Below, one piece after another: positions 12,199 to 35,284 of a DNA stretch of 35,284 nt. The DNA is taken from IMG/VR virus record IMGVR_UViG_3300032294_000785, positions 1 to 35,284 of that record; one strand, given 5' to 3'. A program made the position numbers and the translations under genes. This DNA is from a virus. The notes under the pieces are model-generated. The model was not told the origin of the DNA. It saw only the letters and a list, made by a program, of their open reading frames with translations, and did no database searches. Every line of letters begins with the position of its first letter. The stretch's first letter is position 1.

Positions 12199-12584
12199 TT
12201 GTTCATCCTCATCTGTTGGGCCAGTTCACGAATCTTGGCCATGGCTTTTTCCCTGGCTTCCGCAGTCGCAATTCGTTCATGGATCGACGGCTGGCGCTCA
12301 ATCATGCTGTTGGGCTTGTCAGGAATCCGCGGGCCATCGTTCAACAACTTTTTAAACGCCAGGGCCGACGGTGGCCGGTCTGGGTTCATGTGCTGCAACG
12401 CATAGTCCATCTTGGGCCGATAGGTCAGCATCCGACCGCATTCCTCAATCCACACCTGACGGATCAGCCCAGGGTCAACGTCCCGCCAATGGTTCGCAAA
12501 CGTGGCCCCGTAGATGGCGTTCATCTTTGAAAAAATGTAGTCAAAGCCGCTGTCGGCATCACAAAAGTCGTTTGGGTTCCACAT
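12195..12584 (-). CDS. Putative replication protein P-like/helicase-loader-type protein
   Basis: A 129-aa protein with FDYIFSKMNAIYGATFANHW, the IRQVWIEECGRMLTYRP segment and PSALAFKKLLNDGPRIPDKP. This succession is what remains recognisable of lambda P-like replication proteins (helicase-loader partners), and the gene sits right after the DUF1376-type initiator-like gene as in lambda O-P order. It lacks an ATP-binding motif, so it is a P-type rather than DnaC-type protein. It overlaps the upstream gene by 26 bases. Confidence is moderate: the match rests on motif layout and position. Confidence 0.55.
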   Translation of the reverse strand: MWNPNDFCDADSGFDYIFSKMNAIYGATFANHWRDVDPGLIRQVWIEECGRMLTYRPKMDYALQHMNPDRPPSALAFKKLLNDGPRIPDKPNSMIERQPSIHERIATAEAREKAMAKIRELAQQMRMNK

Positions 12585-13311
12585 GGCTTACCTCGGCTAG
12601 TTGTTCGGTTTTCTCCCAAAATGGTTTGGCGGCTGGCTTGGGGACTGCCAGGCCGCGGGTCAGTTGGGCCATAGTCTGCTGCCTGGCTTCGGACGCCGTG
12701 ACCTTTTCCTGAACCCATGCAGCCTTAAAACTTGCCCAACCACGGGTGCAACACATCGCCAAAGCCTGTTCTAGCGTGTATCCGGCCTTTTGGGCCTCTT
12801 TTTCGATACCGGTAAGGGCAACGGCAGTCACAGGCGCTTTCTTGGCCTTCCTGACCGTTAAAAACGATTCCCACACGATTGCAGAAACGCCGTCAGGCGT
12901 GGCGGTGACCACCGCCTTTGTTTTCTTGAATATTGGGTCTTGTATCTTGGGTATTGGGTCTTGTGTAGCATTGCCTTCGCTATGCGTTCGCATTGCGTTA
13001 GCAGTCCATCGCACTTGGGCGCTGGCCTTGGCCTTTTCGCTCTTGGCGTGAACGGCTTGAATTTCGCGCTGAACACGATCAGACCACCAGCCCGATTCTG
13101 TCAGGTCGAAAAATTCTCGCAAAACGTTTGCAATGCTTTCGGTATGCGAACGCATCCGAATCAGCCTAGCCACCTCGGCGATGTCTGCTGGTAGCGGCTT
13201 TTCGTGAAGGTAACACCAGTCCAGCATTCGGCGATACGCCAAATCCTCGGATTCGTCCAGGTGTCCCGTGTGACTTTGATAGTCACCTATGTTGAACAGG
13301 TAATAGTGCAA
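12559..13311 (-). CDS. DUF1376/YdaU-like replication protein
   Basis: A 250-aa protein of the phage replication-initiator (lambda O-position) type. HYYLFNIGDYQSHTGHL, LAYRRMLDWCYLHEKPLPADI and VLREFFDLTESGWW (first 80 aa) are typical DUF1376/YdaU-type N-terminal motifs. A linker follows, then a C-terminal helical part with EKEAQKAGYTLEQALAMCC and GWASFKAAW. I place the start at TTG 13311 because AAGGGG lies six bases before it and because family members start directly with the (N/H)YY motif; a GTG at 13332 is also possible. An origin may lie within it, as in lambda O, but I see no clear iteron set. Confidence 0.8.
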   Translation of the reverse strand: MHYYLFNIGDYQSHTGHLDESEDLAYRRMLDWCYLHEKPLPADIAEVARLIRMRSHTESIANVLREFFDLTESGWWSDRVQREIQAVHAKSEKAKASAQVRWTANAMRTHSEGNATQDPIPKIQDPIFKKTKAVVTATPDGVSAIVWESFLTVRKAKKAPVTAVALTGIEKEAQKAGYTLEQALAMCCTRGWASFKAAWVQEKVTASEARQQTMAQLTRGLAVPKPAAKPFWEKTEQLAEVSHVEPKRLL

Positions 13312-13372
13312 CCCCGACCCCTTTTCTCCCACCCAAAAGGAAATCGCGGCAGGCGGGGTGGGGTCGCTTTTC

Positions 13373-13413: not shown

Positions 13414-13572
13414 CTAGTCCTTAAACCACTTGGGACGCAACGCCTTCAACTGCCACAGCCTCGCCTGTGGAAGTTCCTTGCCCCATTGGCTGATGGCCTG
13501 TCGGGTGATGCCCAACAACTTGGCCAGCGCCATGGCTGACCCCGCTTTCTGAATGGCTTGTGCTTTGTCCAT
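13414..13572 (-). CDS. cro: Cro/YdaS-like repressor (52 aa)
   Basis: A 52-aa DNA-binding protein with a helix-turn-helix at about 13-31 (AMALAKLLGITRQAISQWG) followed by ELPQARLWQLKAL, the usual Cro/YdaS family ending. The open frame extends upstream to 13668, but the extension crosses its own promoter and operator and is not credible. From ATG 13572 there is no ribosome site, and the -10 box lies six bases upstream, so the transcript is predicted to start at the A of the ATG (leaderless, as for lambda cI from pRM). It should bind the operators at 13581-13663 and set the balance between the two divergent early operons. No larger CI-like partner is encoded. Confidence 0.85.
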   Translation of the reverse strand: MDKAQAIQKAGSAMALAKLLGITRQAISQWGKELPQARLWQLKALRPKWFKD

Positions 13573-13578
13573 GTTTGC

Positions 13579-13607
13579 ATGGTAAGCCAACTTTCGTCTT
13601 TTTGCAA
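13579..13607 (-). promoter_or_regulatory. Leftward early promoter for cro operon
   Basis: The minus strand reads TTGCAA (13602-13607), a 17-base spacer, then TACCAT (13579-13584). Both hexamers are partial consensus matches. The -10 overlaps the GGTAAGCC half-site. The predicted start is at or next to the A of the cro ATG. Confidence 0.62.
13581..13588. promoter_or_regulatory. Operator half-site GGTAAGCC at the leftward -10
   Basis: GGTAAGCC repeats the GTAAGCC core found, inverted, in the palindrome at 13645-13663, and overlaps the leftward -10 box, where a bound repressor would block cro transcription. Confidence 0.5.
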
Positions 13608-13624
13608 CACCCTCAAAAAAATTT

Positions 13625-13641
13625 TGTAAGACCGCTTGACA
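13625..13641. promoter_or_regulatory. Operator-like inverted repeat near rightward -35
   Basis: TGTAAGACCGCTTGACA is an imperfect inverted repeat (TGTAAG / CTTGACA) with the same arms as the downstream palindrome. It overlaps the rightward -35 box (TTGACA, 13636-13641). Confidence 0.5.
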
Positions 13642-13664
13642 TGGCTGTAAAGGTGGCTTACAGT
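13636..13664 (+). promoter_or_regulatory. Rightward early promoter for the recombination operon
   Basis: A perfect -35 TTGACA (13636-13641), a 17-base spacer and -10 TACAGT (13659-13664). A leader of about 43 bases precedes AAGGAG and the ATG at 13714. This is the best sigma70 match seen in the window. Confidence 0.8.
13645..13663. promoter_or_regulatory. Operator palindrome CTGTAA-N7-TTACAG
   Basis: A perfect 6+6 inverted repeat, 19 bases long, covering the spacer and -10 of the rightward promoter. Its arms are shared with the neighbouring half-sites. It is the strongest candidate binding site for the Cro-like protein. Confidence 0.65.
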
Positions 13665-13713
13665 TCACTCATGCCCTAGCAATTCCGCGACGGGTCTTTT
13701 AAGGAGAATCAAG

Positions 13714-13977
13714 ATGGTCAAGATGATGAAGTTCTACGTTACTAACGGTGTCGAAAAAGCCCGTGTCTGGTACAGCCGCGGTCAACTGATTGATGGCCGT
13801 GATTGCGTCACGATCTACGCCAAGGACTACACCGGCGCACTTGGTCGTATCTTCCGCGACGCAGCCCCCTACGAAAACAACACCGACACGATGACCGACT
13901 ACTTCGAAAAGGGTCGGGTTCGCATCTTTCCCGACAACCCTATGTTTGCCGCGGCTTGCGCCAGGGCTGTTCGGTAA
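13714..13977 (+). CDS. Conserved small phage protein, first gene of rightward operon (87 aa)
   Basis: An 87-aa protein with KFYVTNGVEKARVWYSRGQLIDGRDCVTIYAKDY and a later MTDYFEKGRVRIFPDNP. The family is found at the start of phage early operons; its role is unknown to me. AAGGAG sits eight bases before the ATG. The early position suggests a regulator or host takeover factor, but this is inference from position only. Confidence 0.8.
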   Translation: MVKMMKFYVTNGVEKARVWYSRGQLIDGRDCVTIYAKDYTGALGRIFRDAAPYENNTDTMTDYFEKGRVRIFPDNPMFAAACARAVR

Positions 13978-14098: not shown

Positions 14099-14314
14099 AT
14101 GTTTGCAGACAAGTATGAATTGGAAACCTGGGCGGGGCCTTCGATGGCCACCATCAGGGCCAGGCAGCGGGCCGCGTGTGGCGGCGGCTGCGGGTGCGGG
14201 AAGTTGCGTGATCCGGTCACCAAGTCCAACGGATCGCGCACCTGGTTGTCGTGTTTGCGTTGCCTTGGCACGATCAAACAGTTGACCACGAACGTAAAGC
14301 GGACTTACAATTAA
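14099..14314 (+). CDS. Cys-rich small protein (71 aa)
   Basis: A 71-aa protein with CGGGCGCGK near residues 27-35 and CLRC at about 52-55, a probable zinc site, and a basic C-terminus (KQLTTNVKRTYN). A ribosome site (AAAGGGGCGGG) precedes the ATG. I recognise no family; the base composition is like the neighbours. Confidence 0.55.
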   Translation: MFADKYELETWAGPSMATIRARQRAACGGGCGCGKLRDPVTKSNGSRTWLSCLRCLGTIKQLTTNVKRTYN

Positions 14315-14352
14315 ACCATGCCGGAAACGGTCTATTGAGAAAGGAAACAGCG

Positions 14353-14906: not shown

Positions 14907-15491
14907 ATGGAAGCATCATTCAACAAAGTAGCCGCGGCTTTGGTCAAAGCCCAAAAGGCTTTTGGCCCCGCGCTGAAGTCATCAACCAACCCGCATTTCC
15001 GCAGCCGTTACGCTGACTTGTCGGCCTGTGTCGAAGCAGTCATCGACGCGTTGAACGACAACGGCATCGCGCTGATGCAGCGGGTCAGCCCGTGCGACGA
15101 CGGCGTGATTGTCGAAACCGTGTTCGTCCACGAATCGGGCGAAATCATCAACTGTGGCCAACTGCACGTCCCCGCCAGCAAACAAGACGCCCAGGGTTAC
15201 GGGTCGGCCCTGACCTATGCGCGACGGTACAGCCTGATGGCCGCTTGCGGTATCGCACCGGAAGACGACGACGGCAACGCTGCAACACGCCGCCAGCCTT
15301 CAGCAGTCCCGACACCGGACATTACCGACCACCTGGCTGCAATCGACGCCAGCGCCAACAGCGACGAAATGACCGCGGCATACAAGGAAGCCTACGAAGC
15401 CTGTCAGGGCAACCAGGCACTTCAGGCCAAGGTGATTGCAGCCAAGAAAGCCCGCATTGAACGCGCCAAAAAGGAGAAGGCCAATGCTTGA
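14907..15491 (+). CDS. erf: Erf-family single-strand annealing protein
   Basis: A 194-aa recombinase like P22 Erf (204 aa). The core runs AALVKAQKAFGPALKSSTNP, FRSRYADLSACVEAVIDALNDNG, then the EIINCGQLHVP strand and AQGYGSALTYARRYSLMAACGIAPEDDD, the signature of the ERF superfamily. The C-terminal third is helical and Ala-rich. It anneals complementary single strands, enabling circularisation and recombination-dependent replication. Its partner nuclease is the YqaJ-type exonuclease downstream. AAAGGAAAATC precedes the ATG. Confidence 0.93.
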   Translation: MEASFNKVAAALVKAQKAFGPALKSSTNPHFRSRYADLSACVEAVIDALNDNGIALMQRVSPCDDGVIVETVFVHESGEIINCGQLHVPASKQDAQGYGSALTYARRYSLMAACGIAPEDDDGNAATRRQPSAVPTPDITDHLAAIDASANSDEMTAAYKEAYEACQGNQALQAKVIAAKKARIERAKKEKANA

Positions 15492-15750
15492 CTTCAAGTC
15501 ACAAACCATGCGCCAGGTTTGCACGGCGATGGTTGAATGCATCAACCGCTATGACCAAGCCGACGCTGATGAATGCCAAGACCTTATCAATCCCGATGCG
15601 CCAATGATTATTCAGGTTGGTGACTTCGGTTATGAAGTCTTCAGCGTTGGCGGTGATGGTTACATCGAAGGGTTCGTCATCATGGCCAAGCCCGACAAGG
15701 TTTGCCAATGGAAGGGCATGGAATTCAAAACACTGAAAGGCAAAAAATGA
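15484..15750 (+). CDS. Small protein between Erf and exonuclease (88 aa)
   Basis: An 88-aa protein (MLDFKSQTMRQVCTAMVECI...), starting inside the end of erf with AAGGAG upstream. It has VGDFGYEVFSVGGDGYIEGF in the middle and ends KTLKGKK. No family is recognised. Its location between the annealing protein and the exonuclease suggests a recombination accessory; this is inference. Confidence 0.65.
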   Translation: MLDFKSQTMRQVCTAMVECINRYDQADADECQDLINPDAPMIIQVGDFGYEVFSVGGDGYIEGFVIMAKPDKVCQWKGMEFKTLKGKK

Positions 15751-16373
15751 TTGAAGTCGAACAGCGAACCGACGATTGGTACGCAGCCCGCCTGGGCAAA
15801 GTCACGGCCAGCAGTCTGTACAAAGTTCTGGCCAAGACCAAGACGGGTTACGGGGCTGACCGTGGCAACTACATGACCCAGTTAGTCTTGGAACGCATCA
15901 CCGGCACGAAGGCCGATTCCTACACCAACGCAGCGATGCAATGGGGTGTCGAACAGGAACCTTTCGCCAGGGCCGCGTATGAGGCTTCCAGGGGCGTTAT
16001 GGTGGACGAAGTGGGGTTTGTACCTCACCCGACCATTGAAGCCGCTGGCGCGTCGCCTGACGGCCTGGTGGGGGACGACGGCATGGTGGAAATCAAATGC
16101 CCCGACAGCAAGACTGCACTGGAATGCTGGCTGTCGGACAACCCCGTGGAAGGCAAATACTTTGCACAAATGCAATGGCAAATGCGCTGCGCCGACAGGG
16201 CCTGGTGCGATTACGTTGTGTTTGATCCGCGGATGCCCGCCAAGGCCCAACTGTTCGTCACTCGCGTTATGCGCGACGACGAATGGCTGGCCACCACGGA
16301 AGCGGAAGTCGTTAAGTTCTTGGCTGAAGTCGATGCCAAGGTTGCAGCACTCAAAAAAGTCATTGGGGAATAA
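15747..16373 (+). CDS. YqaJ/lambda-exonuclease-like 5-3 exonuclease
   Basis: A 208-aa nuclease. The N-terminus EQRTDDWYAARLGKVTAS is diagnostic of YqaJ/lambda exo-like proteins. The catalytic motifs are GASPDG with D105, VEIKCP with E115 and K117, and YFAQMQWQM with Gln residues near 141-145. It resects double-strand ends to give Erf a single-strand substrate. Its ATG overlaps the stop upstream (ATGA). The open frame extends to 15702, but the chosen start matches the family N-terminus and leaves GAAAGG upstream. Confidence 0.93.
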   Translation: MIEVEQRTDDWYAARLGKVTASSLYKVLAKTKTGYGADRGNYMTQLVLERITGTKADSYTNAAMQWGVEQEPFARAAYEASRGVMVDEVGFVPHPTIEAAGASPDGLVGDDGMVEIKCPDSKTALECWLSDNPVEGKYFAQMQWQMRCADRAWCDYVVFDPRMPAKAQLFVTRVMRDDEWLATTEAEVVKFLAEVDAKVAALKKVIGE

Positions 16374-34916: not shown

Positions 34917-35284
34917 TTAAGCCGCAACACGGCAAGCAAGTTCCTGGTACAACGGCGCCCAACCATACAGCACATCCAAACGAGTCGGGATGCTGTCGTT
35001 GTTGATCGTGTACTGACGAACCACGCGGATCGAAAGACCCAGTTCCTTGTCGGACGCACGGCCAGCGAAGTGGACGCCATCAGGCAGTTCCAGGTCAGCC
35101 GTGGCCAGCGTAAACGCATTGCGGTGCATCACGATGTTTTGCGGGCTGACAGTACCAGTTGCCGACGTGCCGATGCTGAACGGGGTGACCGTTGCAGTAG
35201 CGGAAGTGGTCGGGATGGTCACGTTCTGGAATTGGCCACCAGTAATGATCGCGGGAACCACGGTCACAGACATAGTGGACGAAC
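34917..35284 (-). CDS. P22-type coat protein, C-terminal part (completes 1-1012)
   Basis: The C-terminal 81 codons plus stop lie at 34917-35161; the rest of this stretch (35162-35284) repeats bases 1-123. RNAFTLATADLELPDGVHF and LGLSIRVVRQYTINNDSIPTRLDVLYGWAP are highly characteristic of one P22-type coat subgroup. The frame from ATG 1012 is continuous across the circle. Confidence 0.93.
   Translation of the reverse strand, partial: SSTMSVTVVPAIITGGQFQNVTIPTTSATATVTPFSIGTSATGTVSPQNIVMHRNAFTLATADLELPDGVHFAGRASDKELGLSIRVVRQYTINNDSIPTRLDVLYGWAPLYQELACRVAA
35162..35284. repeat. 123-bp terminal direct overlap, right copy
   Basis: Identical to bases 1-123; see the left copy. The unique circle is 35161 bp. 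Confidence 0.97.

Follow-up and report, generated by a model that had tools for sequence, protein, structure and literature searches.

A P22-type Cro and its operators kept without a detected CI repressor at the back-to-back early promoters of a phage

The divergent early promoters of this phage are best explained as what is left of a P22-type switch, a negative-feedback timer run by Cro alone, a reading that we consider likely. The regulatory region is real and conserved. In it, a P22-type Cro and its operators would persist in the absence of CI and serve as a feedback timer. After infection, both promoters would fire, the leftward one for cro and the replication genes and the rightward one for the recombination genes. 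Cro translated from a leaderless message would build up and bind the predicted AAG-N4-CTT sites, which lie over the -10 of cro itself, over the -35 and -10 of the rightward promoter and also at 14282-14311, where a second rightward promoter is predicted. Binding would shut off early transcription, including that of cro, and the outcome would be a negative-feedback timer and no bistable lysogeny switch; we infer the binding, the order in which the sites are occupied and the timing. A natural Cro circuit of this kind, lacking CI, appears to be kept in many environmental phages, so the lytic role of Cro, which is to turn down early genes, could be studied separately from the decision to lysogenise. 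A second gain is a widely conserved and testable repressor gene, predicted to be leaderless, together with a repeated module of operator, promoter and hairpin.

The window, which is the whole stretch of DNA that was analysed, is a virus record and 35,284 bases long. Its two ends (1-123 and 35162-35284) form an exact direct repeat of 123 bases, suggesting that it is a complete genome. Two divergent promoters lie in 141 intergenic bases between a minus-strand gene for a 52-aa protein (13414-13572) and a plus-strand operon that begins at 13714. The gene order is that of a lambdoid early region minus the CI segment. The genes and the control elements between them are as follows.

12559-13332, minus strand: DUF1376 / primosomal O-like gene, downstream of cro (PF07120, phrog_6451)
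13414-13572, minus strand: cro, 52 aa, P22-Cro family, predicted leaderless with +1 at 13572 (PF14549; best match of the model 1rzs)
13579-13584, minus strand (read 13584-13579): leftward -10, TACCAT, 6 nt ahead of the cro ATG (TAnnnT there in 70/71 loci)
13602-13607, minus strand (read 13607-13602): leftward -35, TTGCAA, with a 17-nt spacer (from the sequence; 17 is the best spacer in 63/70 relatives)
13584-13593, no strand: operator core AAGCCAACTT, overlapping the cro -10 (AAG-N4-CTT at -21 in 68/71 loci)
13628-13637, no strand: operator core AAGACCGCTT, overlapping the rightward -35
13650-13659, no strand: operator core AAGGTGGCTT, at the rightward -10 and within the palindrome CTGTAA-N7-TTACAG (13645-13663)
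13636-13664, plus strand: rightward early promoter, TTGACA (13636-13641), 17-nt spacer, TACAGT (13659-13664) (from the sequence and promoter scan)
13714-13977, plus strand: first rightward gene, 87 aa, function not assigned (phrog_18717, E 3e-7)
14907-15491, plus strand: ERF single-strand annealing protein (PF04404)
15702-16373, plus strand: YqaJ-type exonuclease (PF09588)

The first-pass annotation had described divergent promoters with 17-base spacers, GTAAGCC-type arms at both -10 boxes and a third copy over the rightward -35. All of these are present in the sequence, the promoters as TTGCAA-17-TACCAT and TTGACA-17-TACAGT and the third arm copy at 13626-13639. The leftward promoter is not listed by the promoter scan because it matches the consensus at 8 of 12 positions, where the threshold is 9. 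The same annotation pointed out the perfect palindrome CTGTAA-N7-TTACAG. The palindrome does exist, but it is AAG-N4-CTT that is repeated and conserved, with a dyad half a base off that of the odd-spaced palindrome. Perfect 6-bp arms alone were not significant (2 observed against a shuffle mean of 0.60, a number reached in 14.7% of 2000 shuffles), and the palindrome was ruled out as the functional unit. Sites matching TAAG-N4-CTTA at 7 or more of its 8 defined positions were counted in the 141 bases and compared with dinucleotide shuffles: three were observed against a shuffle mean of 0.063, and three were reached in none of 5000 shuffles. Three AAG-N4-CTT cores in one promoter region is the arrangement of P22-type operators.

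The Cro protein and an 11-member alignment served as queries for relatives. They yielded 63 viral loci, a set of the best 80 among 321 viral loci, and 3 loci on genome contigs; the 147 loci gave 72 distinct sequences including the window (L001), identity being judged over 140 nt upstream and 120 nt downstream. Counts refer to 71 loci, with L061 (upstream DNA missing) and L147 (a partial match without the ATG) omitted, and to 70 in the anti-SD and upstream-start counts, from which L063 was further omitted. Exactly 6 nt separate a TAnnnT hexamer from the cro ATG in 70 of the 71 distinct loci and in 17 of 18 representatives below 75% identity. Finding the half-sites unconserved among relatives with the same protein was named at the outset as a way to overturn the reading, which survives this check: 68 of 71 loci and 15 of the 18 representatives have the AAG-N4-CTT operator at -21. 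Among these representatives, the most conserved bases are those of the -35, of AAG and GGCTTA and of the -10, and conservation falls in the six bases before the ATG. At least three exact operators occur within 130 bases in 49 of 71 loci, and with one mismatch allowed, at least three occur in 12 of the 18 representatives.

The 52-aa protein belongs to the P22 Cro family, as its earlier placement among Cro proteins had it: PF14549 (P22_Cro) scores 49.8 bits (E 3e-13) against a curated cut-off of 30.2, and the nearest solved sequence is P22 Cro 1rzs (E 6e-4). An AlphaFold2 model (mean pLDDT 90) predicts four helices in the all-helical Cro fold, and its best Foldseek match is again 1rzs (TM 0.77, rmsd 1.2), though with an E of only 0.016. 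PF15943 (YdaS_toxin) is likewise above its cut-off (34.1 against 30 bits), but that the protein is a YdaS-type toxin and no repressor is very improbable, given the higher P22_Cro score, the weak structural match to YdaS 8c7k (TM 0.49, E 2.3) and the argument, in passages of PMC8630535, that YdaS of CP-933P is itself a Cro analogue. Profile searches bore out the claim that CI and integrase are missing. Neither tyrosine integrase (PF00589), S24 peptidase nor HTH_3 above cut-off was found in any of 28 records (the window and 27 relatives, the related records being contigs of 28-37 kb that may be fragments), and serine recombinase (PF00239) was found in none of 32 records, two metagenome-assembled genomes among them. 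HTH_3 gave weak matches in 14 of the 28 records, all 14 inside cro by coordinates. The gene that faces cro (13714) matched no regulator family in Pfam-type profiles or PHROG. An opposing CI-type repressor and an integrase or lysogeny module, which a bistable CI-Cro switch comprises, are thus undetected, although a very diverged CI would escape the models. The operators do match those of CI-bearing relatives and many genes of the window have no assigned function, so an otherwise temperate phage could have an unrecognised or host-borne repressor that shares the operators, Cro being half of a normal switch; against these empty searches, we regard that as unlikely. The first-pass annotation spoke of a "lambda-like switch"; this wording is not supported, given the lack of a detected opposing repressor and the P22 operator code.

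The cro message is probably leaderless and starts at its first codon. The A of the cro ATG (13572) lies 6 nt past the leftward -10, and the +1 is predicted at this A because of that distance. Anti-SD energy upstream of cro averaged -3.03 over 70 loci against -3.31 for shuffled upstream sequence, so there is no SD signal, and in the window it is -1.7 for cro against -9.2 for the first rightward gene. The fixed 6-nt spacing and the absence of an SD signal in relatives make the leaderless start, which had been proposed earlier, well supported as a prediction. There are precedents: in passages of PMC4488713, the cro and cI messages of phage PY54 are leaderless by RACE, and paaR2, the CI analogue of CP-933P, is also leaderless according to passages of PMC8630535. 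A leader on the cro message, with an upstream start giving a longer in-frame protein or with a weak internal site, is improbable to about the same degree as a hidden lysogeny repressor. It would suit the weakness of the leftward promoter, the reading frame of the window, which is open up to a GTG at 13668, and the 22 of 70 relatives with some in-frame upstream start, but in 48 of 70 no such start precedes a stop, the -10 and its distance hardly vary among the loci, and PY54 provides a mapped leaderless cro. The Cro-only timer remains the preferred explanation. Counting against it are the weak consensus of the leftward promoter (8/12), the lack of AAG-N4-CTT upstream of cro in phage PdC23, which has a similar gene order, and L063 (2840-3000; identical in L059, L060 and L062, together one of the 71 loci), a close Cro relative in which the leader of the gene is longer and contains an SD-like AAAGGA.

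Salmonella phage P22 immC (c2, cro, OR1-3; NC_002371) resembles the window in the family and fold of its Cro, in having three AAG-N4-CTT operators between divergent promoters and in gene order, with replication genes following cro and recombination genes on the other arm. Its OR block contains AAGTCATCTT, AAGATTCCTT and AAGTGTTCTT, and its OL block two more AAG-N4-CTT sites; the AAG-N4-CTT core of OR1-3 indicates that the DNA code of the window is that of P22. P22 differs in having the C2 repressor, an OL apart from its OR, nut sites and an annotated 14-base gap from the OR block to cro; in the window, no C2 was found, the two early promoters stand next to each other and cro is predicted to be leaderless. 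PY54 immB has the kind of leaderless cro that is predicted for the window, but the phage is temperate with CI, and its Cro binds one operator (OR3), apparently without self-repression, according to passages of PMC4488713. Alcaligenes phage Piluca (MZ326864) has a P22-type Cro and three GTAAAG-N4-CTT operators between repressor and Cro, but its cro faces an annotated immunity repressor and is annotated with a ribosome-binding site. A Thiothrix contig (L146, 5900-6060) encodes a Cro that is 45% identical, with a CI-like gene (HTH_3 57.6 bits; Phage_CI_repr 26.5, cut-off 22) facing cro over 64 bases and AAG-N4-CTT sites at -59, -44 and -21; in each gene, an ATG follows six bases after a TAnnnT hexamer, and both are predicted to be leaderless. 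Pseudomonas phage BUCT566 has one AAG-N4-CTT site.

Pantoea phage PdC23 and Manatee Spring phage cta1H496 share a Cro/YdaS-like gene followed by replication genes and a divergent ERF arm, with no annotated CI between. By eye, cta1H496 has TAAGAT, 6 nt and ATG with an AAG-N4-CTT site, whereas PdC23 has an SD-like GGAGG upstream of cro. The cassette pattern with the hairpin did not turn up in the stretches of these phages that were searched. On a parsimonious reading, the switch in the lineage of the window may have descended from a temperate one by losing CI while keeping Cro and operators. A literature search on Cro-only lytic phages and int-alpA found, among the papers listed, no description of this arrangement, which may still be in print.

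An operator also accompanies a second rightward promoter, which, like the leader hairpins, goes beyond what the first-pass annotation claimed; it lies outside the region covered there. The pattern AAG-N4-CTTA-NNN-T occurs three times in the window on both strands together, namely at cro, at the rightward promoter and at 14297, and extra cassettes that match it are common in relatives. The second promoter and the two predicted leaders are as follows.

14282-14311, plus strand: second rightward promoter, TTGACC-18-TACAAT, with operator core AAGCGGACTT at 14297-14306 (promoter scan, pattern search)
13671-13713, plus strand: predicted rightward leader, +1 at 13671, GCCC/GGGU stem (13673-13676 with 13692-13695), U-rich run and SD-like GGAG at 13703-13706 (anti-SD energy -9.2)
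14318-14352, plus strand: leader predicted for the second promoter, with +1 at 14318 and the stem GCCG-GAAA-CGGU, which has a GAAA loop (14320-14331)

GGUCU is present in the leader of 115 of 124 distinct rightward cassettes. With a stem finder that favours pairing, the stem of these 115 starts at +3 in 93, at +4 in 6, at +16/+17 in 15 and upstream of +1 in one. The stem alternates between CCC/GGG and CCG/CGG. At column +6, 33 of 35 distinct leaders are paired against 19.0 expected (0 of 2000 shuffles), with relatedness controlled solely by dropping identical leaders; the covariation is confined to this one column pair, the two outer C-G pairs being invariant and +7 and +8 not significant. Among distinct hairpin-like sites, an operator lies upstream in 101 of 136 on the strand opposite cro and in 0 of 4 on the cro strand.

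The AUG at +1 of rightward leaders was considered as a leaderless mini-ORF (ATG CCC TAG) and ruled out, because some copies start with ACG, AAT or ACT while the stem stays. A terminator formed by hairpin and U-run is unlikely, as termination would then come some 20 nt after initiation and the SD lies beyond it. A strictly 5'-terminal hairpin is ruled out by the stems at +16/+17 and before +1. A 5'-terminal stem with two free bases could slow decay initiated at the 5' end: in passages of PMC3997798, the Bacillus pyrophosphohydrolase requires a minimum of two unpaired bases, with a preference for three or more, and the reference list of that review cites E. coli work on stabilising 5' stem-loops. 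This protective role is a lead only, because of the stems at +16/+17, the one before +1 and the hairpins without an operator. It is possible, though we lean against it, that in CI-free phages the P22-type switch became an early-gene regulon in which the repressor message is leaderless and the +3 hairpin of the controlled operons protects or tunes their message. If true, the contrast between leaderless and hairpin ends would set when the repressor wins, and early timing would reside in 5' ends and operators.

In L140, L108, L074 and L082, the same small hairpin stands on the opposite strand straight after a terminator-like stem and is followed by an SD and a gene; none of these hairpins has an operator upstream.

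At L064 (1388-1548), the Cro recognition helix reads GITRGAVWLWG, half-sites GTATAGCC (by eye) replace GTAAGCC, and there is no exact AAG-N4-CTT site. This single case hints at a possible co-variation of protein and site, i.e. a natural change of specificity.

Directly after cro, roughly where nutR follows cro in P22, the minus strand matches the Rfam int-alpA RNA (RF02996; 13328-13403) with 35.1 bits, just below the gathering score of 35.8. The family was matched in 25 of the 28 records, 5 of them above the gathering score; by coordinates, the match lies at most 20 nt from cro in three checked records and 440-600 nt downstream in two others.
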